Assembly (NCBI GenBank): GCA_937981575.1
Contig: CALJNR010000054.1
Location: 1-64,000 of the forward strand
Origin: an uncultured Clostridia bacterium
GTDB lineage: Bacteria; Bacillota; Clostridia; Lachnospirales; Cellulosilyticaceae
DNA length: 64,000 nt
Direction: 5' to 3'
Made by a program: the position numbers and the translations under genes. Within the stretch, counting starts at the first letter, position 1. Each line of letters begins with the position of its first letter. Positions 32,258-44,707 of the stretch are shown here, piece after piece. The notes under the pieces were generated by a model. It worked only from the letters and a program-made list of their open reading frames with translations, was not told the DNA's origin and made no database searches.

Positions 32258-32935
32258 CTAAAGATCTAATATTTCATATTCATGTTCTAATAAGTTAATA
32301 AAAAGCACTTGCTTTCTAATAAGCTTCCCGCGGTTAATCAGGATTTTTGCCACTTCACTGACCTGCGTTGAACTAACTAGTGCCGGCGTAAATGAAGGAT
32401 TCCCCAGCAGCTTTTCCTTCCCACTGGAAGTTCTGCTTTTATAAATCTTATCAAGTGTCCGGTCTCCTGGGAAAATAGTTGCAACCTGCCCATACCACCC
32501 GGCAATAGCCCCATGAACAAAAGGAATCCTAAGCTTCTCACATATTCCCTGAATCAAGAACCTCGTATCAATATTATCCAGTGCATCTACAACAACATCA
32601 TGTCCCCCAAGCAAACACTCTCCATTATCAGAAGTTAGTAATTCATGGACGGCATGTACCTTAATCTCTGAATTTACTATAGCCATTCTGTTTTTGGCTG
32701 TAAGTGCCTTGCTTTGTCCCAGCACTTTTTCGTCGCATAATATCTGCCTATTGAGATTACTTTCATCAAAAACATCCCCATCAATTGCTGTAATAGTGCC
32801 CACCCCAAGCCTGGCCAGCATTTCAATCACATACCCGCCAAGTCCCCCACAGCCTACCACACATACTCTTGATTGCTGGAGTACTTGATTTTCCTCTTCA
32901 CTTAAAGTTGCTTTATTCCGTTCATATCTTCGCAA
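32258..32935 (-). CDS. ThiF/MoeB/HesA family sulfur-carrier adenylyltransferase
   Basis: A 225-residue E1-like enzyme with nucleotide-binding loop VCVVGCGGLGGYVIEML, catalytic segment SNLNRQILCDE and VVDALDNIDTRF. It should adenylate the C-terminal Gly-Gly of the MoaD-like protein encoded just upstream, for sulfur transfer into the pterin dithiolene. The CxxC zinc pairs of E. coli MoeB are not visible. It starts at TTG 32935, 6 bases after a G8 run and 2 bases after the MoaD stop, so the two are translated together. Last gene of the AOR maturation group. Confidence 0.88.
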   Translation of the reverse strand: MRRYERNKATLSEEENQVLQQSRVCVVGCGGLGGYVIEMLARLGVGTITAIDGDVFDESNLNRQILCDEKVLGQSKALTAKNRMAIVNSEIKVHAVHELLTSDNGECLLGGHDVVVDALDNIDTRFLIQGICEKLRIPFVHGAIAGWYGQVATIFPGDRTLDKIYKSRTSSGKEKLLGNPSFTPALVSSTQVSEVAKILINRGKLIRKQVLFINLLEHEYEILDL

Positions 32936-32937
32936 AA

Positions 32938-33162
32938 TCAGCCCCCCCCAACTGGTGGAAAGATCGATACCGTATCTGCTTCCTTAAGAATAGTGTCAAG
33001 CTCCCCATCTCTTCCGTTGATAAGCAAAATAGCTACATCCTCTTTCGGAATTTCAAGCCTATCAATAATATTTTGAGATGCAGCGCCTTCAGGAAGCTCT
33101 AAAAACATTTCTTTGCCTCTCCCCTGTCTAAGCGTCGCAAATAACTTAACTTTAATCTGCAT
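32938..33162 (-). CDS. moaD: MoaD/ThiS-like sulfur carrier protein
   Basis: A 74-residue ubiquitin-like protein (MQIKVKLFATLRQGRG) ending in FPPVGGG, the di-glycine tail that is thiocarboxylated during molybdopterin synthesis. I chose ATG 33162 because AGGAGG lies 8 bases upstream; the ATG at 33171 overlaps that site. The mature end has three glycines, so the last may be trimmed or tolerated. It is flanked by the radical SAM maturase and the ThiF-like activator, which suggests a dedicated role in the tungsten-pterin cofactor of the nearby oxidoreductase. Confidence 0.9.
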   Translation of the reverse strand: MQIKVKLFATLRQGRGKEMFLELPEGAASQNIIDRLEIPKEDVAILLINGRDGELDTILKEADTVSIFPPVGGG

Positions 33163-33188
33163 AGATTTCACCTCCTACTTCTCTCCAG

Positions 33189-34229
33189 CTATATACAATA
33201 AATAAGCTTTCTAGCCCATAAACAATCACCGCAGGACGGTACATTGCTGTAGCAGTCTACATCTGCATGCTTTATCATATCACATCCATCCGCCAAATCA
33301 CAGTCCGTACATGAAGGATACTGATTGTTAAACACTACATCCCTAAATCCTTTATAGCTGCTGCTATCCCATATATTCTTTAATGTTTCGTTTTCTATAT
33401 TGCCAAAAGCATGAGCCGAAATACTTTTTAGGTGCCCAAAAACAACTTCCGTCCCATCGTGGGCAAATCTATAACATGGCACCACATCTCCCGAAGCCGT
33501 AATGACCAAAGCCTTATTATCTATAAACCGGCACCGCCTCTCAGTCTTCAGCTGATAAGACGGAAGTTTCAGGTCAATGGCCTTTCTAAAGGCATGGGTT
33601 TGAATCTTATTAAAAAATTGCTTGATGCTTTCATTTTCATACCGTGTATAAAGTATCAAATCTTTATCTTCTAATACAGAAGGTAAAATATGTGAAAGGA
33701 TAACCCCAGATACCTGAAGTGACTCTGCTAAATCTATCACCTTAAAAACATCATCTTTATTTTTATCAGAAAGAACCATCTGAAAAGAAAGGATCGGCAT
33801 AGAACTTTTCAGCTCTTTCTTCACCTTATTTAATATTTTGATGTTTTCAATGATTCTCTCCAGCGAAAACTGCCTGATCTGATAAAACTTTTCCTCCGCT
33901 CCATCAATAGAAATGATTACATGGTTAACAGTTTCTACAATCGTTCTCACCATAGCCTCATCCATCAGCGTTCCATTGGTTGTAAGGGTTAACTGATAAC
34001 CTTTTAGCGCCTCCATAACCTCCTTAGCCTTTTTAGCAAAAGTCGGCTCACCAATACCCCCAAGCACAATCTCCTTTACAGAAAGCATACTTTGAATTTC
34101 CCCAATGCACTTTTCAAGAACCGCATCATCCATATCCATCTCTCGTTGATGCCATGCCTTGCGGTAACACATCTCACACTTTAGATTACAGCGATTCGTA
34201 AGCTCCAAATAAACTTTTTCAACTGACAT
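33189..34229 (-). CDS. Radical SAM maturase of the tungsten-cofactor oxidoreductase
   Basis: About 346 residues. The radical SAM motif CNLKCEMCYRK is at residues 12-22, with VLGGIGEPTFAKKA as the SAM-binding glycine motif. C-terminal cysteines (SCTDCDLADGCDM, CYSNVPSCGDCLW) resemble a SPASM/twitch domain holding extra Fe-S clusters. Proteins of this type sit beside tungsten-containing aldehyde oxidoreductases and are called tungsten cofactor oxidoreductase radical SAM maturases; their reaction is not known. I chose ATG 34229, 6 bases after GGAGG, over ATG 34256. It follows the AOR gene after a repeat and hairpin. Confidence 0.85.
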   Translation of the reverse strand: MSVEKVYLELTNRCNLKCEMCYRKAWHQREMDMDDAVLEKCIGEIQSMLSVKEIVLGGIGEPTFAKKAKEVMEALKGYQLTLTTNGTLMDEAMVRTIVETVNHVIISIDGAEEKFYQIRQFSLERIIENIKILNKVKKELKSSMPILSFQMVLSDKNKDDVFKVIDLAESLQVSGVILSHILPSVLEDKDLILYTRYENESIKQFFNKIQTHAFRKAIDLKLPSYQLKTERRCRFIDNKALVITASGDVVPCYRFAHDGTEVVFGHLKSISAHAFGNIENETLKNIWDSSSYKGFRDVVFNNQYPSCTDCDLADGCDMIKHADVDCYSNVPSCGDCLWARKLIYCI

Positions 34230-34278
34230 CCTCCACCTCCATCTTGGCTTAGACATTCAAGAAAAATTATCCTAAATC

Positions 34279-34404: not shown

Positions 34405-36195
34405 TTATAATCCTAGTAAAGACTTTCTCTCTTCTGTTGGAATACCTTCTGCACTCCAGCCGCGTTCTGCATAGTAGCCTGGAAGAAGGTCAGCAAGTTT
34501 AGCCACATTTCCTTTAGAAGGTCCTTCTGGAATATCATCTTCTAACAATCTCTTTGGCAATGTATCTTGTGATGGATCAATACCCGCTGATAAGTTGTAT
34601 AGTCTTTCAATGTTCCAAATTCTTTCTCCAGCCACGAGTACATCTTCTGCAGTCCAAGATGTGCCAATCACTGCATTAATCATATTCGCATAATCTCCTG
34701 CTCCCATTGCAAAAGAAGTAAAGAGACATAAACCTGATGCATCAATAAATGCTGTAAGGTCTTGGAATATTTTAACCCATGTTGCTTTGCCTTCAAGAGA
34801 GAAACGATCTAATTTTTCTGGCAGACCAAGGATTTCAGGAGAAATCAGGTAACCTCTTACATGACAGCCGCCGCGGTTAGAAGTTGCATATTGGAGTCCC
34901 TGTCCTTGAATAGCTCTTGGATCGTAAGCTGGAAGCTCTTGTTTTTTTACAGACATTGAAAGTTCAGGTACCCCATAAGAATCTGCAAGTCTGTAAGAAC
35001 CATCAGCCATCTTATCTCCAAGACCTTCTCTTACGCCCATACGTTTTGTCCATTCAACAACAGCATCAGCATTACCAAACTCTAATGAAAGACCACCAAG
35101 ATCTTCATCTTTAATATATCCTTTTTGGTAAAGTTCCATCGCTGCCGCAATAGTCGCTCCAGCTGAAATGGTATCTAAACCATATTCATTACACCAAAAG
35201 TTAGCTTTAATAACTGCACCTAAATCAGATACGCCGCAGTCCCCGCCGAATGCCCAGATGGTTTCATACTCAGGACCGCCGCCTTCGATATCATCCACCT
35301 TACAATAACGTCCGCAGGCAATAGGACATCTATAGCATGGGTCTTTTTTCACTAAGTATTTTTCAGCTAATGTTTCACCACTGATATCTTCTGCTTTATC
35401 AAACTGAGAAGTTTGGAAGTTATTAGTTGGAAATACGCCATTTTCATTAATGATATTAACAAGAACTGCCGTTCCGTATGTAGGTAAGCCTTGACCTGTA
35501 ACCCCGTTATCTTTGATCTTCTGCATGCATTCTTTAACAACTGCTTTAAGACCTTCTGGATCAGCAAGTTCAACTTTTTTGCTTCCTTTTACAACAATAG
35601 CTTTGAGGTTTTTAGACCCCATTACTGCCCCAACGCCAGAACGTCCTGCTGCTCTGCAGTAGTCATTCATTACCGCTGCAATGTTAGATAACTTTTCACC
35701 AGCAGGCCCGATAGTAAGGATTCTTGATTTTTCCGGTGTTTCTGCTTCTAGTGTTTTTGTAGTATCTGAAACGATTTTACCCCATAGGTGCGCTGCAGAT
35801 CTAAATTCAATTTTATCATCTTCAATCATAACATAAACAGGCGCCTCAGCTTTACCTTCTACAATCACTAAATCATAACCTGCAAACTTAAGTTCTGGTC
35901 CCCAATAACCTCCCGAGTTAGACGAAGCAATAGTTCCTGTAAGCGGAGATTTGGTTACGACCATGTATCTGCCGCCTGTTGGTGTTGGTGTGCCTGTTAA
36001 AGGTCCTGTTACGATAAAAAGTTTGTTATCTGGACTGAGCGCATCCACATCTGGTGCAACCTCATCTGAATAAAGCTTTGTACCAAGTCCTCTGCCTCCC
36101 ACAAACTTTTTAGCAAGTTCTTCATTTAAAGCCTCCACTTGATAAGTGCTTGTTGTGAGATTAATTCTTAAAATTTTGCCTTGATAACCGTACAT
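34405..36195 (-). CDS. aor: Aldehyde:ferredoxin oxidoreductase (tungsten-dependent)
   Basis: A 596-residue enzyme oxidising aldehydes to acids (or the reverse) with ferredoxin. The [4Fe-4S] ligands are in CYRCPIAC (Cys287, Cys290, Cys294) and GLCLF (Cys490), matching the spacing of Pyrococcus AOR. Pterin-contact motifs include GGRGLGTKLY, GPLTGTPTPTGGRYM and RSGVGAVMGSKNLKA. I chose ATG 36195, 8 bases after AAAGGGGG; a longer frame to 36258 lacks similarity and enters the riboswitch leader. The gene has its own Moco/Tuco-type riboswitch and lies beside tungstate uptake and cofactor genes, which supports tungsten use. Confidence 0.95.
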   Translation of the reverse strand: MYGYQGKILRINLTTSTYQVEALNEELAKKFVGGRGLGTKLYSDEVAPDVDALSPDNKLFIVTGPLTGTPTPTGGRYMVVTKSPLTGTIASSNSGGYWGPELKFAGYDLVIVEGKAEAPVYVMIEDDKIEFRSAAHLWGKIVSDTTKTLEAETPEKSRILTIGPAGEKLSNIAAVMNDYCRAAGRSGVGAVMGSKNLKAIVVKGSKKVELADPEGLKAVVKECMQKIKDNGVTGQGLPTYGTAVLVNIINENGVFPTNNFQTSQFDKAEDISGETLAEKYLVKKDPCYRCPIACGRYCKVDDIEGGGPEYETIWAFGGDCGVSDLGAVIKANFWCNEYGLDTISAGATIAAAMELYQKGYIKDEDLGGLSLEFGNADAVVEWTKRMGVREGLGDKMADGSYRLADSYGVPELSMSVKKQELPAYDPRAIQGQGLQYATSNRGGCHVRGYLISPEILGLPEKLDRFSLEGKATWVKIFQDLTAFIDASGLCLFTSFAMGAGDYANMINAVIGTSWTAEDVLVAGERIWNIERLYNLSAGIDPSQDTLPKRLLEDDIPEGPSKGNVAKLADLLPGYYAERGWSAEGIPTEERKSLLGL

Positions 36196-36276
36196 TAAAC
36201 GACCCCCTTTAAATTTGGCGCAGCAATACTTGTTTGCTGCAAATGATTTGAAAAACATTTACTGCTTTTACTAGCC

Positions 36277-36371
36277 AAATCCTTTCCAATCACGGGAGGC
36301 AGCAAAGTTTCCTGTGCTACCCATAGGTTAATGGTTCATAGCCTAAGCCTTAGAACAATTAACTCGGACGT
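36277..36371 (-). promoter_or_regulatory. Moco/Tuco riboswitch controlling aor
   Basis: The minus strand carries the Moco RNA-type core: GGAAACT, then GCTGCCTCCCGTGATTGGAAAGGA, closed by pairing of AAAUCC with the 5' segment GGACGU-like end. A second region at 44435-44523 shares TCCGA, TTGTTCTAAGG-like, GGAAACT, GCCTCC and TTGGAAAGGA blocks. The remaining leader (36196-36276) holds a hairpin GCAGCAA/TTGCTGC but no terminator, so regulation may be translational. Function follows from motif and gene context. Confidence 0.82.
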
Positions 36372-36524
36372 TGGTATCCCATACTTTCGTACAAAAAACA
36401 CCTTCTTTATAAAAAATAACCCCGTCAACAATTGTACATTTTCACCACAATTATTCTCATAATTACTTTTATTTTATCAGATTCTCCCAAATCTTTCAAC
36501 TAAAATCTGCTTAACAAGATGCTT

Positions 36525-36971
36525 TTACTCTTCTATTTCTATGCTGTCTCCAACCTTAACTATTCCGCTTTTTAGAACCTTTGTAAAAATCCCTTCTTTA
36601 GGCATGATACACTGTCCAACCTGAACCTTGATCGCACAACCTGTATGACATTCTTTACCGATTTGAGAAACCTCCTGAAGCGTTTCACCAATTTTTAGTA
36701 TTGTCCCTACCGGAAGTTCATGCAGCAAAATCCCTTCAGTTGTAATATTTTCAGCAAACTTTCCGCTGCAAAGGCCTTCTATCCCTATCTTTGTCATCTT
36801 ATCAATGCTTTCCTGCGCCAGCAAACTAACTTGTCTATGCCATTTACCTGCATGAGCATCTCCTACAAGTCCGTGGTCTTCCTGAAAAAAGCCTTCTTGA
36901 ACTGCTTCTTTAATGACACCTTTTTCCTTGCTGGTATTAATTGAAATGACTTTCCCTATAACTTTGCTCAT
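36525..36971 (-). CDS. MOSC domain protein
   Basis: A 148-residue single MOSC domain ([33 protein letters not shown], here as [15 protein letters not shown]), with the conserved late cysteine in [15 protein letters not shown] domains bind or transfer sulfur for molybdenum cofactor enzymes. Its ATG overlaps the moaC stop by 4 bases (ATGA), so it is coupled to the moa genes. Last gene of the mogA-tup-moe-moa operon; the exact reaction is unknown, but cofactor sulfuration or storage is likely. Confidence 0.87.
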
Positions 36972-37444
36972 TTTAAATCCTCCCTTATATAATCTCCGGA
37001 TTTGCCTCCTGATTTTTTTAAAAGACGAATGTCTCCAATGATCATGTCTTTATCAATTGCCTTACACATATCATAGATTGTTAAAGCGGCTACTGATACA
37101 GCTGTCAGTGCTTCCATCTCTACCCCTGTTTTACCCACCGTCTTAACTTCAGCTTCGATTAAAACACTGCAGTCTTCAATCTTAAAGCGAAGGTCTACTC
37201 CGGTCAGCATAAGCGGGTGGCACATCGGGACTAAATCACTGGTTTTCTTAGCCCCCATAATGCCCGCAATCTGCGATACGGATAAAACATCTCCCTTTTT
37301 AATACGGGCATTCCGAATAGCTTCTATCGTCTCCGGTTTCATTGTAATCATCCCGGCAGCTACAGCTGTCCTTGACGTATCGTCTTTTCCCGTTACCTCT
37401 ACCATATACGCTCTTCCTGAATCATTAAAGTGTGTAAACGACAT
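36968..37444 (-). CDS. moaC: Cyclic pyranopterin monophosphate synthase MoaC
   Basis: 158 residues. Family motifs include [51 protein letters not shown] and [19 protein letters not shown]. With MoaA it converts GTP to cyclic pyranopterin monophosphate, the first step of the pterin cofactor. It lies 18 bases after moaA and overlaps the MOSC gene. Confidence 0.96.
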
Positions 37445-37462: not shown

Positions 37463-38419
37463 TCAGCCGCCGACCTGTACCATGTTTCTTGCAATAAAAT
37501 CTCCGGCTTCAATCTGATGCTGCTGTGGCTTTTTAAGTATCACATATTTAAGAAATTCGGTTAAATCTCCGCCTTCTCTTAAAACTTTTTTGAGATCAAA
37601 TTCTTCATTGGAGTGCAGACAATGCTTGAGCTTTCCTTCTGAAGTAATTCGCACTCTATTGCATGCACTGCAGAACTTACATGATATAGGGCTTATAAGA
37701 CCGATTTTACCTTTTGCCCTTGGCAGCTGATAAAGCGTTGCCGGCGAACTTGGATCTGCATTTTTAAGCTTTCTAAGACTTGGAACCTTCTCCAAAACAT
37801 ACTCATTAGGCAGGAAATTCTTAAGTGACCAATTAGCCACTTCACCAATTGGCATAAGCTCAATAAAACGCACATCTATGGGTTCTTGCTCCGTAAGACT
37901 TACAAACTTTTCAATTTCATCATCATTAAACCCGCCAATCAGTACCGCATTAAGCTTAATAGGACCAAGTCCAGCTTCTTTCGCCTTTTCAATGCCAAGA
38001 AGAACATCTTTTAGTTTCCCGCCTCTGGTCATTGCAGCGTACTTTTTTTCATCCAATGTGTCTATACTGATATTTACTCTGTGAAGACCTGCTGCCCTTA
38101 GGTCCTTTGCCATTGTTTTTAAATAGGTCCCATTGGTCGTGAGCGCGAAGTCTTTGATTTCCGAATGCCTGCTTATTTTCTCGATAAGGGATACAATGCC
38201 TTTTCTTGCAAGGGGTTCTCCTCCTGTAATCCGTACTTTGTTAATTCCCAGTTTAACATAAGCAGATACGATTTCATCAATTTCCTCAAGGGTTAAAATA
38301 TCACGATGAGCCCGCTTTGGAATACCTTCTTCCGGCATACAGTACCTGCACCTTAAATTGCATAAATCCGTAATAGATAGTCTTAAATAGTTAATTTCTC
38401 TTCCATATGCATCTTTCAC
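37463..38419 (-). CDS. moaA: GTP 3',8-cyclase MoaA
   Basis: A 318-residue radical SAM enzyme with N-terminal cluster motif CNLRCRYCMPE, SAM loop ITGGEPLARKG and C-terminal second-cluster motif CKFCSACNRVRITSEGKLKHC. It ends in VGG, the catalytically important Gly-Gly tail. It rearranges GTP in the first step of molybdopterin/tungstopterin synthesis. The start is GTG 38419, directly after the TAG of the preceding gene, with GGTAGGTG upstream. Confidence 0.96.
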   Translation of the reverse strand: MKDAYGREINYLRLSITDLCNLRCRYCMPEEGIPKRAHRDILTLEEIDEIVSAYVKLGINKVRITGGEPLARKGIVSLIEKISRHSEIKDFALTTNGTYLKTMAKDLRAAGLHRVNISIDTLDEKKYAAMTRGGKLKDVLLGIEKAKEAGLGPIKLNAVLIGGFNDDEIEKFVSLTEQEPIDVRFIELMPIGEVANWSLKNFLPNEYVLEKVPSLRKLKNADPSSPATLYQLPRAKGKIGLISPISCKFCSACNRVRITSEGKLKHCLHSNEEFDLKKVLREGGDLTEFLKYVILKKPQQHQIEAGDFIARNMVQVGG

Positions 38420-40321
38420 CTAGTCACCTACCTTCACTATCGTGCCTGGATTTTCAAGCTCATATCCCCCGATTAATACGAGCTGATTTTTAAACGCTTC
38501 TGATTTCAAAATATCGATAAAGCTTTGGACTCTATCATCCTCTAAATATTGAACCGGAACTAAAAAGTCATAGGCTTCATAGCCTACAGGCACAAAATCA
38601 AGCCCCATCGCCTGGGCTGCTGAATAAATACCAAGCCCTGCATCAGCTCCACCGGAACTGATAGTAACGGCAACAGTCATATGGGTTGTCATCTCACGAT
38701 TATATCCTGTGATAGTGTGCGGATCAATTTGCTGTTTTTTTAATTCATAATCTAAAAGGTGTCTGGTGCCTGCACCTCTTTGTCTGTTAACATAGCTTAT
38801 ATCTTCCCGCCTCAAATCACTAAATCCTTTAATATCCTTTGGATTTCCTTTTTGAACCATAAGACCTTGAAGCCTTTTAACTCCTTTAATAAGTGCCATT
38901 GAGCCTAAAGGGAAATATTTTTTTACATAGGAAACATTATATTCTCCTGTATCTTCGTCTAAAAGATGAATGGGTGAAATGTGGCATTCCCCACGTTTCA
39001 TAGACATGATGCCCCCCAGGCTTCCTACATGGCCTGAGGCGAGCGGCATCCTGTCTGCAATAACATCTAGGATCAAATCATGACTTCCAATCAGTACCAG
39101 GCGTCTTTGAATCTCTTCTATTGACTTAATGAGCTTAATCTCAACTTCTTGACCGCTTTCGATGCCTTCTGACATTCTTGGTACAGTTAATACCCCATCT
39201 GCCCGCACAAGGCTCATCGTAGCTCCAGCCCCTCTGCTAAGCGGAGTAGCAATCAGTTTTTGACCCACTTCACCTAAAGTTACTCTTATAAGTTCTTCAT
39301 GCTTGAGTGAAGAAACAACCCGCTGGGATAATATTGCTCGAGCCTCTTCGGTTCTTTCTTTTTTGCCTAAATACCATGTTAAAATAGGTCTTGCAAAAGT
39401 TTGGAAAGAAAAATAGGCCGAAACAGGGTATCCCGGAATGCCGATCACAGGCTTGCCTTTAATCATGCCAAGTATAGTCGGCTTCCCTGGTTTCAGGGCA
39501 ACTCCATGTACAACTACCTCTCCCAGTTCCCTGATAAGATCAACTGTAAAGTCTTTAGAACCGGCTGATGACCCTGCATTGATAATCAGCATGTCGTTTT
39601 CTTCTACGCCTTTCATAATAGCTGCCCTAAGGGCTTTTTGATCATCTTTCACAGGAGCATAAATCTGGGGCAGTCCTCCCTCTTCTATGACCAATCCTTC
39701 AAATACCTTTGAATTCGAATCTATAATTTTCCCGCAGCTAAGTTCATTCACTGACTGCACAATTTCTGTTCCTGTCGGCAAAATACCAACTTTGGTTTTT
39801 GAAAACACATGAACTTTATCAATCCCGCCATTTAATAATGCCCCTATATCCATAGGCCTTATGGTGTGATATGAAGGAAGAATCATCTCCCCTTGGACGA
39901 TGTCTTCCCCTACTGGCCTTATATGCTGCCATGGATAAGCCGGTGCTATAATCTCCACCCAGCCGTCTTCAAGCTCTGATACATCCTCGATCATAATAAC
40001 AGCATCTCTGTCATGGGGAATAGGGTTGCCTGTATTAATGTATTCAAAGTCTGTTCCTAAAACAAGATGTTTAGGGGTTTTCTCTGTTGCCCCATAAGTT
40101 TTAGCAGCCATTAACGCAATGCCGTCCATTGCTGCTGCATGATAATGTGGGGATGAATTTTTTGCAAAAACAGCTTCTGTTGTTGTCCGGAAAAGGGCTT
40201 CTCCTGCTGGCACCCATTCTGTCTTTGGCGGCACCGCTAAGGCTTCTTTATATAAACTCATCGCTTCTTCAACAGGAATATTAGAGATATATATATTTCT
40301 GTGTTGTTTGTCTTTTTCCAT
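38420..40321 (-). CDS. MoeA-like molybdopterin protein fused to a PBP-like (LysR substrate-binding type) domain
   Basis: A 633-residue fusion. Residues 1-405 form a MoeA domain (HYHAAAMDGIALMA, VGILPTGTEIVQ, INAGSSAGSKDF, VIGIPGYPVSAYFSF). Residues 410-633 form a periplasmic-binding-protein-like domain found in molybdopterin proteins (LVLIGSHDLILDVIADRM, QRGAGTRHLLDYEL, TISSGGADAGLGIYSAAQAMGL). The PBP domain may sense or present the oxyanion. It sits directly behind a normal moeA, so the two may act on different metals or steps. AAGGAGGTGG precedes its ATG, which lies one base after the moeA stop. Confidence 0.92.
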   Translation of the reverse strand: MEKDKQHRNIYISNIPVEEAMSLYKEALAVPPKTEWVPAGEALFRTTTEAVFAKNSSPHYHAAAMDGIALMAAKTYGATEKTPKHLVLGTDFEYINTGNPIPHDRDAVIMIEDVSELEDGWVEIIAPAYPWQHIRPVGEDIVQGEMILPSYHTIRPMDIGALLNGGIDKVHVFSKTKVGILPTGTEIVQSVNELSCGKIIDSNSKVFEGLVIEEGGLPQIYAPVKDDQKALRAAIMKGVEENDMLIINAGSSAGSKDFTVDLIRELGEVVVHGVALKPGKPTILGMIKGKPVIGIPGYPVSAYFSFQTFARPILTWYLGKKERTEEARAILSQRVVSSLKHEELIRVTLGEVGQKLIATPLSRGAGATMSLVRADGVLTVPRMSEGIESGQEVEIKLIKSIEEIQRRLVLIGSHDLILDVIADRMPLASGHVGSLGGIMSMKRGECHISPIHLLDEDTGEYNVSYVKKYFPLGSMALIKGVKRLQGLMVQKGNPKDIKGFSDLRREDISYVNRQRGAGTRHLLDYELKKQQIDPHTITGYNREMTTHMTVAVTISSGGADAGLGIYSAAQAMGLDFVPVGYEAYDFLVPVQYLEDDRVQSFIDILKSEAFKNQLVLIGGYELENPGTIVKVGD

Positions 40322-40322
40322 C

Positions 40323-41564
40323 TTAGATATCCACCTCCTTTAAGAGATAAACCTTGACTTTCTCGCCTTTCATCAGTCCTTCTGTACGCTCTGGAATACG
40401 CAGATATCCTGAAGCCTTAGCCAGAAGAGTCATCATGCCTGACTTGGCATAAAAAGGAACGGCGTTCCATCCCTCCTCATCTTGAACAAGCTGCACCATC
40501 TGATACGTTTCTTTACCCGGTGAAGAATGAACATTGCCTAGTAAAACAGCTGTTACGCTGAACTCTTTTTGAGGTCTTTCTAAAAGGTGATCCATATAGG
40601 CTTTTACAAACTGATTAAAGATAATAAGCGCCGATGCAGGGTGCCCTGGCAGTCCAAATACAGCCTTTTGCCCTACTCTTCCAATGATTGTAGGTTTGCC
40701 TGGCTTAATAGATATGCCATGAACCAAAACACTGCCGCCTTCAAAAGACTCGATCACTGCCTTTGTATAATCTCTTGTCCCGACAGAACTTCCTCCAGAG
40801 AGCAGTACAATATCTGCACTATCCAAGGCTTTCCCTGTTTCCTCTTTAAGCGTATCAAAATGATCTTTAACAATAGCCTTTTTGACTACTTCTCCACCAA
40901 GTTCTGTAATGAGACTGCTTAAGGCGTAGCCGTTAATATCTCTTATTTCTCCAAGTTTCTTAGGCTCTTCGAGATCCACGATTTCATCTCCTGTAGACAA
41001 AATAGCAAAACGCAGCTTCTTATACACTTTAATATGATGAATGCCTGCCCCTGCAAGAAGTCCAATATCATAGGGGGTAAGTTTCTTGCCTTTACTTACT
41101 ATTAACTCCCCTTCTTTAAGATCATCTCCAATGCGCGTCATGTTCTCTAAAGGTGCAATTGGTCTATGGATAAGAATAGTTTTTTCATCCAGCTTTTCCA
41201 CATACTCGATCATAACGACCCCATCAGCCCCTTCCGGAACCATCCCTCCTGTGGGAACATAAACAGCCTGTCCGCCCTTTAAGAGAAAATCTGCTATTTC
41301 TCCCATTGCAACTTCATTAATACAGTCAAGAAAGCTTGGCATAGACTCCGAAGCCCCCATCACTTCCTGACTGATTACCGCATAGCCATCTACTGTTGAA
41401 CGGTTAAATTCCGGCAGATCCAGCGGAGCTGTAACTTCTTCACTGACTATCCTGCCTGTTGCCGACATAAGATGAATCTCTTCCGACTCTATAGCATACT
41501 CTTCTGCCAGCTTATTAATGATACTATGAACTTCACTGGCTGTAAGCACGTTAAAAAACTCCAT
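40323..41564 (-). CDS. moeA: Molybdopterin molybdenumtransferase MoeA
   Basis: A 413-residue protein. Motifs include LPEFNRSTVDGYAV, VPTGGMVPEGADGVVMIEYVE, AILSTGDEIVDLEEP, LSGGSSVGTRDYT and FGLPGHPASALIIFN. MoeA inserts molybdate or tungstate into adenylylated pterin. It is the first of two consecutive MoeA-domain genes. It lies about 60 bases after tupC in the same operon. Confidence 0.95.
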   Translation of the reverse strand: MEFFNVLTASEVHSIINKLAEEYAIESEEIHLMSATGRIVSEEVTAPLDLPEFNRSTVDGYAVISQEVMGASESMPSFLDCINEVAMGEIADFLLKGGQAVYVPTGGMVPEGADGVVMIEYVEKLDEKTILIHRPIAPLENMTRIGDDLKEGELIVSKGKKLTPYDIGLLAGAGIHHIKVYKKLRFAILSTGDEIVDLEEPKKLGEIRDINGYALSSLITELGGEVVKKAIVKDHFDTLKEETGKALDSADIVLLSGGSSVGTRDYTKAVIESFEGGSVLVHGISIKPGKPTIIGRVGQKAVFGLPGHPASALIIFNQFVKAYMDHLLERPQKEFSVTAVLLGNVHSSPGKETYQMVQLVQDEEGWNAVPFYAKSGMMTLLAKASGYLRIPERTEGLMKGEKVKVYLLKEVDI

Positions 41565-41623: not shown

Positions 41624-42238
41624 TTAATTAAGACAGATGCACTGATCACAAAAGCGCTCAGCCTGCATCCTATTATGTGTCACAAAAATAATGGTACAGT
41701 TTGTTTCTTGATGATAAACCTTAAGCTGCTCTTCAATAGTCAGAACTGCATCTTCATGAATATTGGAGGTTGTCTCATCTAATAAAAGGAGCGCAGGCCG
41801 CGCAGCAAGGGCTCTGGCTAAAGCAACTTTCTGCGCTTCTCCACCCGAGAGAGTCTCTGCCCTTTGCCTGCTGATTGCTTCAATATTCATGTTTTTCATA
41901 AGTTTATGGACCTTCTCTTGTCTTATTTGTTTGGGAACACCTCTTACTTTAAGCGGATATTCTATGTTATCATAAACACTGCGTTTAAAAAGATACGGCT
42001 TTTGGCTTACCATTCCGATCAACTGCCTGTTTTCTTCTTTAAAGCAAGCTCCTTCGTAAAGAACTTCCCCTTCATAATCCAAGTCAAGGCCGCTGATAAT
42101 ATGAAGCAGAGTGCTTTTGCCCGAACCATTATCTCCTAGAAGCCCTGTAATCTGCCCTTTTGTAAAATGCAGATCCAAAATCTTGAGCACTGTTTTGTCG
42201 TTATATTTTTTTAAGAGATTTTTAACTGTTATTTCCAC
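41624..42238 (-). CDS. tupC: Tungstate ABC transporter ATPase TupC
   Basis: A 204-residue ATPase with Walker A GDNGSGKSTL, Q-loop VSQKPYLFKR, signature LSGGEAQKVALARALA and Walker B LLLLDETTS. It powers import through TupB. Its start overlaps the tupB end by 10 bases. It lacks the extra C-terminal regulatory domain of ModC, consistent with the small TupC type. Confidence 0.93.
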   Translation of the reverse strand: MEITVKNLLKKYNDKTVLKILDLHFTKGQITGLLGDNGSGKSTLLHIISGLDLDYEGEVLYEGACFKEENRQLIGMVSQKPYLFKRSVYDNIEYPLKVRGVPKQIRQEKVHKLMKNMNIEAISRQRAETLSGGEAQKVALARALAARPALLLLDETTSNIHEDAVLTIEEQLKVYHQETNCTIIFVTHNRMQAERFCDQCICLN

Positions 42239-42921
42239 GGCTCAGCCTCCTTATAAACAACAATATTAACAAGCAGTGAAATTAATAGCAGAACAACGCC
42301 AAGTGCAATCGACATATCATACTCTCCCATTGAGTTCATCAGCGCTATGGTTGTTGTCATCACTCTTGTTGAGCCTTTTATATTTCCTCCAACAATCATA
42401 ACAGCTCCAACTTCTGAAATGGCTCTTGAAAAACCTGCAATTAAGTGGACTAAAAAATCCATTTTAAATTCTCTTATTATAAGTATCATAACCTGAAAGG
42501 AATCAGCTCCCAGCAGCAAGCCTTCTTGCTGAATCTGCCTGCCTCTTTGCTTAACCGTATGATAGATAAGTCCTAAAACAAGCGGCGTAACCAAAACAGT
42601 TTGGGCAATAATCATAGCTGACGGGGTATATAAAAGGCCGAGAAACCCAAAAGGTCCACGCCTTGAAAGCATGAGCAGTATAAGAAGCCCAATAACTACT
42701 GACGGCGTACTCATTGACGCATATAGCAGCCTTGAGATAAGCTGTTTGCCTTTAAATCTTTTTAATCCTAACCAAATACCCAAAGGAACGCAAAACAAAG
42801 ATGAAATCATAACCGCTGATAAGGAAACAACAAGTGATCTTATAATAATTTCATAAAGCTCGGGGTCAAAGGAAACAATCATCCAAAAGGCTTTTATAAA
42901 ACCGTTTGCAATTTCATTCAT
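42229..42921 (-). CDS. tupB: Tungstate ABC transporter permease TupB
   Basis: A 230-residue permease with about five to six membrane helices and the binding-protein-dependent transport loop (GLLLGADSFQVMILIIREFKMDFL in part: GADSFQVMILI). It pairs with TupC. The start ATG shares a base with the tupA TGA stop (TGATG). Confidence 0.93.
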   Translation of the reverse strand: MNEIANGFIKAFWMIVSFDPELYEIIIRSLVVSLSAVMISSLFCVPLGIWLGLKRFKGKQLISRLLYASMSTPSVVIGLLILLMLSRRGPFGFLGLLYTPSAMIIAQTVLVTPLVLGLIYHTVKQRGRQIQQEGLLLGADSFQVMILIIREFKMDFLVHLIAGFSRAISEVGAVMIVGGNIKGSTRVMTTTIALMNSMGEYDMSIALGVVLLLISLLVNIVVYKEAEPWK

Positions 42922-43766
42922 CAGTACTTCTCTGCACAGGGAATAAAAAGAGATTTTCCATATATCCCTGCCCCATACTCCTTAATTTTTTCCTGAATCT
43001 TAGGTGATAAAATCCATTTAATAAAAGTTTGAGCCCCTTTGCTGTTAATTCTATCATTTTTATCTGGGCTAACGGCAATTACCCCATACATATTTACAAG
43101 ATATTCATCATTTTCTACCATAATATCAAGTTCCAGATCTTTAGAAAGCTTAAGATAAGTCGCCATATCCGAAAGCGTATAGCCCCTTAGTTCATCTGCC
43201 ATTTTGAGTACATCTCCCATGCCTTTTCCAGCGGATATGTAATGGCTGTATGACGGCTCGCTGCCAAGTTCGTTCCAAATGCTGAGTTCTTTTTTATGGG
43301 TTCCTGACTGATCCCCTCTTGAAACAAACACTGCCTGCTCTTTTTCTATCTCTTTAAAGGCTTCCAAAACACCACCACCCTTTTCTTTTAATCCTATTGG
43401 ATCTTCTGATGGTCCTGCTAAAATGAATGTATTGTACATAACATCCCATCTTTTTGTGCCATGTCCTTCTTTTACAAAGGCGACTTCTGACGGTTTATCG
43501 TGTACCAAAAGCACATCGACTTCTCCATCTTGTCCAAGTTTTATTGCTTGTCCTGTTCCTACGGCAATAACCTTTGCTTCAATGCCCGTTTCTTTATAAA
43601 ACATTGGCAGCAGTTCATCCAAAAGTCCGCTGTCTTGAAGGCTCGTTGTTGAACCAATCAAAAGCGCCGATCCTTTTTGAACTCCGGCCTGCATCCATAA
43701 AACTCCGCAGATCATTGAAGTGGCTGCAAGCATACCTGCCATCATTAAAACTATTTTTTTTTTCAT
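42921..43766 (-). CDS. tupA: Tungstate-binding protein TupA
   Basis: A 281-residue secreted binding protein with an N-terminal signal helix (residues 4-24). TupA hallmark segments are IGSTTSLQDSGLLDELLPMF and FVSRGDQSGTHKKEL, which form the oxyanion pocket that prefers tungstate over molybdate. A cysteine at SMICG might be a weak lipobox. Linked to tupB by a TGATG overlap. Confidence 0.93.
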   Translation of the reverse strand: MKKKIVLMMAGMLAATSMICGVLWMQAGVQKGSALLIGSTTSLQDSGLLDELLPMFYKETGIEAKVIAVGTGQAIKLGQDGEVDVLLVHDKPSEVAFVKEGHGTKRWDVMYNTFILAGPSEDPIGLKEKGGGVLEAFKEIEKEQAVFVSRGDQSGTHKKELSIWNELGSEPSYSHYISAGKGMGDVLKMADELRGYTLSDMATYLKLSKDLELDIMVENDEYLVNMYGVIAVSPDKNDRINSKGAQTFIKWILSPKIQEKIKEYGAGIYGKSLFIPCAEKY

Positions 43767-43809: not shown

Positions 43810-44301
43810 TTATTTTTGGCCGCATTCTGATGTGTCGCCAACAAGTATTTGTATCCCATGATGCAGCGTATCAATAATAAATCCCAGCGATTCTTTCACA
43901 GCCTTTGGACTGCCTGGCAGATTGACAATAAGCGTTTTCCCTCTGATCCCTGATATCCCTCTTGAAAGCATTGCCTTGGGGGTAATTTGAAGACTATTGT
44001 AACGCATGGCTTCTGAAATGCCCGGAGCCTGCCTAGTAATCACCTTAAGCGTAGCTTCAGGGGTAATATCTCTTTGACTGAATCCAGTCCCTCCCGTTGT
44101 CAAAATCAGATTGAGCTGAAGTTCATCTGCCATATAAAGCATTTCTTTTGCTAAAGCTTCTTCATCATCTGGAAGAACCACATATCTGTGAACACGATAT
44201 CCTTTTTCTTCAATAAGTGTTTGTATAAGCCTGCCGCTCAAGTCTTCTCTTTCTCCTTTTGAACCTTTATCACTAGCTGTAATAATCCCTACCTGATACA
44301 T
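43810..44301 (-). CDS. mogA: MogA/MoaB-type molybdopterin adenylyltransferase
   Basis: About 163 residues (YQVGIITASDKGSKGERED, TTGGTGFSQRDITPEAT, RGISGIRGKTLIVNLPGSPKAV). It adenylates the pterin before metal insertion by MoeA. I chose ATG 44301, 6 bases after GGAGG; a longer frame to 44331 would overlap that site. First gene of the nine-gene cofactor operon, behind a Moco/Tuco riboswitch and a terminator. Confidence 0.92.
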   Translation of the reverse strand: MYQVGIITASDKGSKGEREDLSGRLIQTLIEEKGYRVHRYVVLPDDEEALAKEMLYMADELQLNLILTTGGTGFSQRDITPEATLKVITRQAPGISEAMRYNSLQITPKAMLSRGISGIRGKTLIVNLPGSPKAVKESLGFIIDTLHHGIQILVGDTSECGQK

Positions 44302-44391
44302 ATAACGCCTCCAATACTCATCACTTTTCATTCTATAAACTTAAGATTAAGTAGCTGCAAATAATAAAAGTAAATATTTTCCATAATAAAC

Positions 44392-44420
44392 AAAAAAATC
44401 CTGTCCTAGTGGACAGAATC
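44392..44420 (-). terminator. Terminator of the mogA riboswitch
   Basis: On the minus strand ATTCTGTCC-ACTA-GGACAGGAT is followed by a seven-base T run. It comes 15 bases after the aptamer and 91 bases before the mogA start, so it is well placed as an off-switch for the whole operon. Confidence 0.88.
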
Positions 44421-44434
44421 AAATAAAGTACTCT

Positions 44435-44523
44435 TTATCCTTTCCAACAGGAGGCTGTGCAGTTTCCCACAAAGCCCAGACTTACCATCATAGATTCTTC
44501 CTTAGACCAATAAGTTCGGATAA
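44435..44523 (-). promoter_or_regulatory. Moco/Tuco riboswitch controlling mogA-tup-moe-moa operon
   Basis: The minus strand has TTATCC (plus 44518-44523) pairing with GGATAA (44435-44440) as the closing stem. Inside are TCCGAACTTATTGGTCTAAGG, in part, GTGGGAAACTGCAC, and GCCTCCTGTTGGAAAGGA. These blocks match the aptamer before aor in the same order. A terminator follows. A -10-like TATAAT on the minus strand (plus 44544-44549) lies just upstream. Confidence 0.82.
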
Positions 44524-44707
44524 CATTTAGTTGTTTATTCATTATTATACTCATTAAAAACTTACCATATATGAGTAATTATATCATATTAGTTGTTTGA
44601 TGTATTTCCATCTATAATTATACTGAATTTTACCCTTTAAAACTACCCCAAAATTTAAAATAATACGCCTAAATTTTACACCAATCTTAGCCAATCTTCT
44701 AATTTTG

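Follow-up and report, generated by a model that had tools for sequence, protein, structure and literature searches.

The window (the 64,000-nucleotide stretch of DNA that was analysed as a whole) carries on its minus strand a Moco/Tuco-type aptamer at 44421-44533 (referred to as copy 1), followed by an intrinsic terminator at 44392-44420 and by nine contiguous genes (44331-36525) that overlap slightly or are separated by no more than 59 bp. A covariance-model search (cmscan) of the whole window matched copy 1 to RF01055 at 57.1 bits (E 4.8e-11; gathering cut-off 36) and over the full model, from position 1 to 135, thereby confirming the Moco/Tuco riboswitch class that had been proposed for this leader in an initial annotation. 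The closing stem and conserved blocks on which that proposal was built were all located on the minus strand: P1 consists of TTATCC (44523-44518) with GGATAA (44440-44435), GGAAACT lies at 44467-44461, GCCTCC lies at 44455-44450, and the block TTGGAAAGGA is also present. The core of the class, with P1, P2, P4 and P5, a GAAA tetraloop and the segments CUCCGA, CUAAG, GCCUCC and UUGGAAAGGA, was found in both the cmscan alignment and a 41-member alignment, the first of these segments reading AUCCGAA in copy 1 (CUCCGA in the class).

A second RF01055 match (referred to as copy 2; 36266-36378, minus strand, 71.7 bits, E 2.4e-15) sits between the nine-gene operon and a gene for an aldehyde:ferredoxin oxidoreductase (AOR), some 8 kb from copy 1, and these two are the only RF01055 copies in the 3.56 Mb genome. 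The P3 columns of the RF01055 alignment were empty in both copies according to cmscan, and held 0-2 nt in the test for the P3-lacking subtype. Neither the second copy nor the missing P3, which is the published discriminator, had been mentioned in the initial annotation. Copy 1 is thus a new member of the known RF01055 class, of the P3-lacking type and in the usual setting of that type.

The hairpin and T run previously described right behind the aptamer were recovered by a terminator scan. The hairpin (44420-44397) has a 10-bp stem, GATTCTGTCC-ACTA-GGACAGGATT, and is followed by TTTTTG; one terminator-like site was observed in 650 bp, where 0.2 were expected from shuffled sequences. Three other species of the genus (G016, G018 and G019) have an aptamer and terminator at the equivalent place, and the four congeners have an identical terminator 5′ arm, UUCUGUCC. 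The whole could in principle be a chance match, in which an unstructured RF01055-like leader happens to lie beside the ordinary terminator of an upstream gene. The sole point in favour of this reading is a divergent neighbouring gene (44806, opposite strand), against which stand two copies at E 4.8e-11 and 2.4e-15 that both head cofactor operons and are both kept in four species. We consider its probability negligible, and rejected it on the covariance-model scores.

The nine downstream genes had been read as a single tungsten-cofactor operon, and profile searches bore out its content in the order mogA, tupA, tupB, tupC, moeA, moeA-PBP, moaA, moaC and MOSC, all on the minus strand. The mogA-like gene (43810-44331; MPT adenylyltransferase family) likely starts at around 44301, after GGAGG, judging from the sequence. 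It is followed by genes for a TupA-like tungstate-binding protein (42921-43766; NF041772, 2.2e-64), a TupB-like permease (42229-42921; NF041773, 8e-44) and a short TupC-like ATPase of 204 aa (41624-42238; ABC_tran; NF041774, 7e-37, a match that stands among many ABC models), all three below the cut-offs of their families. Because TupA scored 217 bits against the tungstate-binding family and did not reach the NCBIfam equivalog cut-off of 400, the tungstate specificity earlier ascribed to TupABC is here derived from homology to solved tungstate-binding proteins, with PDB 3lr1 and 5my5 being closest and 3muq also matched. The cofactor genes proper comprise moeA (40323-41564; molybdopterin metal insertion), a moeA fused to a PBP_like domain (38420-40321; PRK14498, 763 bits, over cut-off; PF12727), moaA (37463-38419; GTP 3′,8-cyclase, TIGR02666 over cut-off) and moaC (36968-37444; TIGR00581 over cut-off), while the ninth and last gene encodes a MOSC-domain protein (36525-36971; PF03473).

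Copy 2 precedes a tungsten-type aor gene (34405-36258, minus strand; PDB 9g7j, 1aor and 8c0z; PF02730). Because the AOR homology does not begin until M22, the 22nd residue of the reading frame, translation likely starts at around 36195, behind AAAGGGGG. Downstream on the same strand lie a radical SAM maturase of tungsten-cofactor oxidoreductases (33189-34256; TIGR04317, 380.4 bits at a cut-off of 380), a MoaD-like beta-grasp protein that ends in GGG and was assigned by inspection of its sequence (32938-33171), and a ThiF/MoeB-like adenylyltransferase (32258-32935; PF00899, 2.1e-53). Both copies therefore have downstream what is found with the RF01055 class, namely genes for cofactor synthesis, metal uptake or a cofactor-using enzyme, and the tungsten genes that accompany the P3-lacking subtype (Tup and a tungsten enzyme) lie in the same operon or organism. 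Further along the minus strand, a TPP riboswitch (64.7 bits, 32118-32008) precedes a ThiT-like membrane protein of 168 aa (31907-31401). In the congener G019, the aptamer of the AOR leader (L011, 1501-1641) contains an internal repeat, GGCTATGAACTGCTAGACTATGGCTATGAACTATTAACC, apparently duplicated recently within the aptamer, that enlarges its P2 region.

Regulski et al. 2008 (PMC2408646) assigned the P3-lacking form to the tungsten cofactor (Tuco), having found that P3-lacking RNAs accompany tungsten genes in 17 of 19 organisms, and that RNAs with a P3 accompany molybdenum genes. Since then, the proposed Tuco sensing by P3-lacking RNAs has been based on this correlation in a few dozen organisms. 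We retested it on RF01055 matches drawn from order, class and phylum samples, having set aside a genome-wide pattern scan that would bias the comparison because the pattern missed P3-bearing relatives with GCCTTCC. Aptamers were aligned, and at the 160 loci with downstream DNA the downstream genes were clustered and the clusters named by Pfam/NCBIfam. Operons containing TupA, TupB, WtpA or AOR were marked as tungsten and those containing ModA as molybdenum, which placed 72 of the 184 aptamers in marked operons. Tungsten-marked operons had 41 P3-lacking and 3 P3-bearing aptamers, versus 4 and 24 in ModA-marked operons (Fisher p 6e-12), in samples that consist mostly of better-scoring matches rather than random draws and in which related species are not independent; with one count per genus, the ratios were 26:2 and 3:12 (p 2e-6). 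These final calls combine alignment length with 13 by-eye changes made after the contexts were known, six of them in tungsten-marked operons, and without these changes the counts became 35:9 versus 4:24 (p 5e-8). With the initial automatic stem caller, 22 aptamers received no class; automatic stem calls gave p 5e-7, and leaving out the window's genus gave p 3e-10. The family to which the window belongs showed a complete contrast, with tup and AOR leaders lacking P3 and ModABC-type leaders (from other genera) bearing it.

The enlarged set thus retains a strong correlation, together with clean exceptions that any mechanism must explain. Two genera of one family (G400, G506 and G444) have P3-bearing aptamers (ATGGG..CCCAT, confirmed by cmscan) ahead of tup genes, one of them ahead of tupBCA (loci L157 9696-9565 and L162 601-732) and the other ahead of tupB (L184 9628-9486), and such leaders are well suited to a search for what truly determines specificity. 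Conversely, P3-lacking aptamers precede ModA or ModABC operons in G045, G349, G734 and G835. No invariant core position separated tungsten from molybdenum aptamers among those aligned, and a second metal-distinguishing core nucleotide was rejected as a candidate, the columns that differ apart from P3 lying mostly in helices.

The metal background of the window's genome (G000) was examined as well. It encodes two AORs, and no match to PF00384 (molybdopterin oxidoreductase / DMSO-reductase type), PF02738 (xanthine-dehydrogenase) or PF00174 (sulfite-oxidase) was found in it, absences that are provisional because the assembly is 92.7% complete; PF02738 proteins do occur in other species of the genus. 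A ModABC importer is encoded on another contig and the genome has four nitrogenase-type proteins, while in the congener G016 modA and nitrogenase genes lie some 15 kb apart on one contig. The molybdate importer thus plausibly serves nitrogenase, and the simplest reading is that molybdate goes to nitrogenase and that the pterin cofactor made by the copy 1 operon carries tungsten.

With P3 absent, P3 state correlated with the metal, Moco enzymes undetected and molybdate plausibly destined for nitrogenase, Tuco appears to be the likeliest ligand of copy 1. The earlier suggestion of a tungsten-cofactor ligand gains real support from the missing P3, TupABC, the AOR under the sister copy and the three Moco families not found, and we infer the ligand from these. 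Alternatively, the aptamer might respond to Moco, or to both cofactors irrespective of the metal, the absence of P3 then marking lineage and not ligand. Such a reading would accommodate the P3-lacking copies before ModABC operons, the invariant core that is common to both classes, and the unchanged specificity of the E. coli RNA after deletion of its P3 (PMC2408646). It fits less well with a P3 state that follows transporter type over some 40 genera and inside the window's own family, or with a genome in which no recognised Moco enzyme was found, and we regard it as unlikely. Since both copies lack P3, AORs are the only pterin enzymes found and molybdenum probably goes to nitrogenase, the effects of tungsten and molybdenum should separate in this genus, making it a good test bed for a Tuco ligand over Moco.

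The terminator of copy 1 might be controlled through P1. Its P1 3′ strand, GGATAAAGAGT (44440-44430), could form a putative antiterminator (44411-44440, minus strand) with the terminator 5′ arm GATTCTGTCC (44420-44411), and the duplex of GGAUAAAGAGU with GAUUCUGUCC was calculated at -8.0 kcal/mol (q 0.02 versus shuffled arms). The corresponding duplexes of three relatives ranged from -6.4 to -10.2 kcal/mol (q 0.02-0.15). When leaders ending before the terminator 3′ arm were folded, the P1 3′ strand paired with the terminator arm in three of four species; the window copy was the exception, in that the terminator arm of its shortened leader paired with the aptamer's P2 region, a fold that would likewise open the aptamer. 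In 25 of 33 terminator-bearing genera, pairing with the P1 3′ strand was better for the 5′ arm than for the 3′ arm (p 0.003); versus shuffled arms, the combined p was 0.13 (not significant). An antiterminator formed via GGAAAGGAU was dropped because its duplex energies were no better than those of shuffles, and the P1 3′ strand was used instead.

In the proposed mechanism, bound cofactor would hold P1 (UUAUCC/GGAUAA) together, upon which the terminator hairpin would form and leave the operon untranscribed, so that tungstate uptake and cofactor synthesis would stop. In the absence of cofactor, the P1 3′ strand would instead pair with the terminator 5′ arm and transcription would read through. 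An antiterminator that competes with P1, combined with a terminator, would yield a cofactor-dependent OFF switch, as expected of uptake and synthesis genes. Copy 1 could also be an ON switch or a constitutive attenuator, given that its direction rests on modelling and that the shortened leader of the window has a competing fold, but the order of aptamer and terminator, the P1-competing antiterminator and the biosynthesis and uptake genes make up the standard OFF arrangement, and Moco represses the E. coli moaA RNA (PMC2408646); we judge such other directions quite improbable. On balance, copy 1 is a P3-lacking Moco-class riboswitch whose ligand is probably the tungsten cofactor and which probably acts as a transcriptional OFF switch.

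Copy 1 resembles the P3-lacking Tuco/WCo RNAs of PMC2408646 in its full-length match, its core, its lack of P3 and its tup and pterin gene context, and does not differ from them in kind, platforms of the terminator type also being described there. With the E. coli moaA Moco riboswitch, which represses cofactor synthesis, it shares class and core; the E. coli RNA, in contrast, has a P3, does not respond to Tuco, and acts on translation with a ribosome site inside P1, whereas copy 1 uses a terminator. Moco-RNA motifs are likewise known from another anaerobic Firmicute, Eubacterium limosum (PMC5651825), where they lie upstream of a hydrogenase/formate dehydrogenase region rather than a tup operon. 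As in the tandem Moco-Moco and Wco-Wco riboswitches of PMC9481103, two copies of the same class serve one pathway in the window, but those tandems share one leader, whereas the window copies lie 8 kb from each other and in front of different genes.

Copy 2 differs from the P3-lacking Tuco/WCo RNAs (PMC2408646) in having no terminator and a predicted opposite direction. A terminator scan of its leader found none, and control of the ribosome site was modelled in its place. Likewise, a terminator or a ribosome site inside P1 was absent from all 13 AOR leaders (five genera), and one or the other was present in 21 of 33 genera for synthesis and uptake genes. In unconstrained folds the AOR ribosome site was paired, often with the GCCUCCC..UUGG strand of the aptamer, and sealing the aptamer freed it, the accessibility of the Shine-Dalgarno (SD) sequence in the window rising from 0.33 to 0.75. 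A rise of more than 0.3 was obtained for 10/13 AOR leaders versus 10/45 synthesis/uptake leaders (p 5e-4), or 4/5 versus 9/33 by genus. Moreover, 10 of the 13 AOR genes, versus 20 of 676 others, have CCAAA (the complement of UUUGG) shortly before the ribosome site, and two leaders that did not belong to the sample, one from Christensenella sp. UBA1431 and one from a Cloacimonadota genome, folded likewise.

These folds suggest that, without ligand, the GCCUCCC..UUGG strand may mask the AOR ribosome site, which would become free once the strand is buried by ligand binding. The hidden state was only weakly better than in shuffles (p 0.05-0.57 with 20 shuffles), and swapping partners (aptamer core and AOR ribosome site) across lineages gave a median p of about 0.1-0.15, which is suggestive only. 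Because of these results, and because GCCUCC is able to pair with almost any GGAGG, copy 2 acting as a translational ON switch for AOR is a prediction that we put at roughly even odds. Pairing of the copy 2 P1 5′ strand with the AOR ribosome site was no better than in shuffles and was rejected.

Should copy 2 behave as predicted, one ligand would have opposite outputs, with Tuco stopping its own synthesis and uptake through the terminator of copy 1 while turning on AOR translation through copy 2, and the synthesis of the AOR enzyme would be gated by cofactor supply. We advance this combination tentatively, as somewhat less probable than its converse. The one new idea here that can be tested is this pair of opposite polarity, RF01055 being otherwise a known class, and two copies with different platforms would allow opposite effects of one cofactor to be compared side by side. 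The 2008 paper discusses repression (PMC2408646), and opposite polarity of RF01055 before AOR is not described in the accessible literature, most subscription literature lying outside our search.

Several other aptamer arrangements were present in the collection. Mixed tandems precede formate dehydrogenase operons in one genus (L221 601-1019, L228 601-1018 and L219 9696-9290; G726, G851 and G986), with a P3-lacking aptamer (80-88 bits) followed some 165 nt on by one that has P3 (66-68 bits). Such a leader would be a two-input tungsten/molybdenum gate if the metal is indeed marked by P3; the 2022 survey of tandem riboswitches contains Moco and Wco tandems and no mixed Wco/Moco pair (PMC9481103). 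Doublet and triplet P3-bearing aptamers within one leader (L225 and L222; G851:C37 and G726:C21) precede ModABC and large secreted-type proteins. A recurrent operon with mostly P3-lacking aptamers (L134, L135, L136, L140, L153, L193 and others) encodes an FMN-binding protein, a PF00174 molybdopterin-domain protein, parts of an ECF-type transporter, a MobB/FeS protein and unnamed families, and looks like an undescribed redox and uptake system linked to tungsten or molybdenum. Finally, a P3-lacking aptamer with AOR was found in a Cloacimonadota genome (L312, 9890-10008), far from the Firmicutes, possibly because switch and enzyme were transferred horizontally as a unit, or because the contig was mis-binned.
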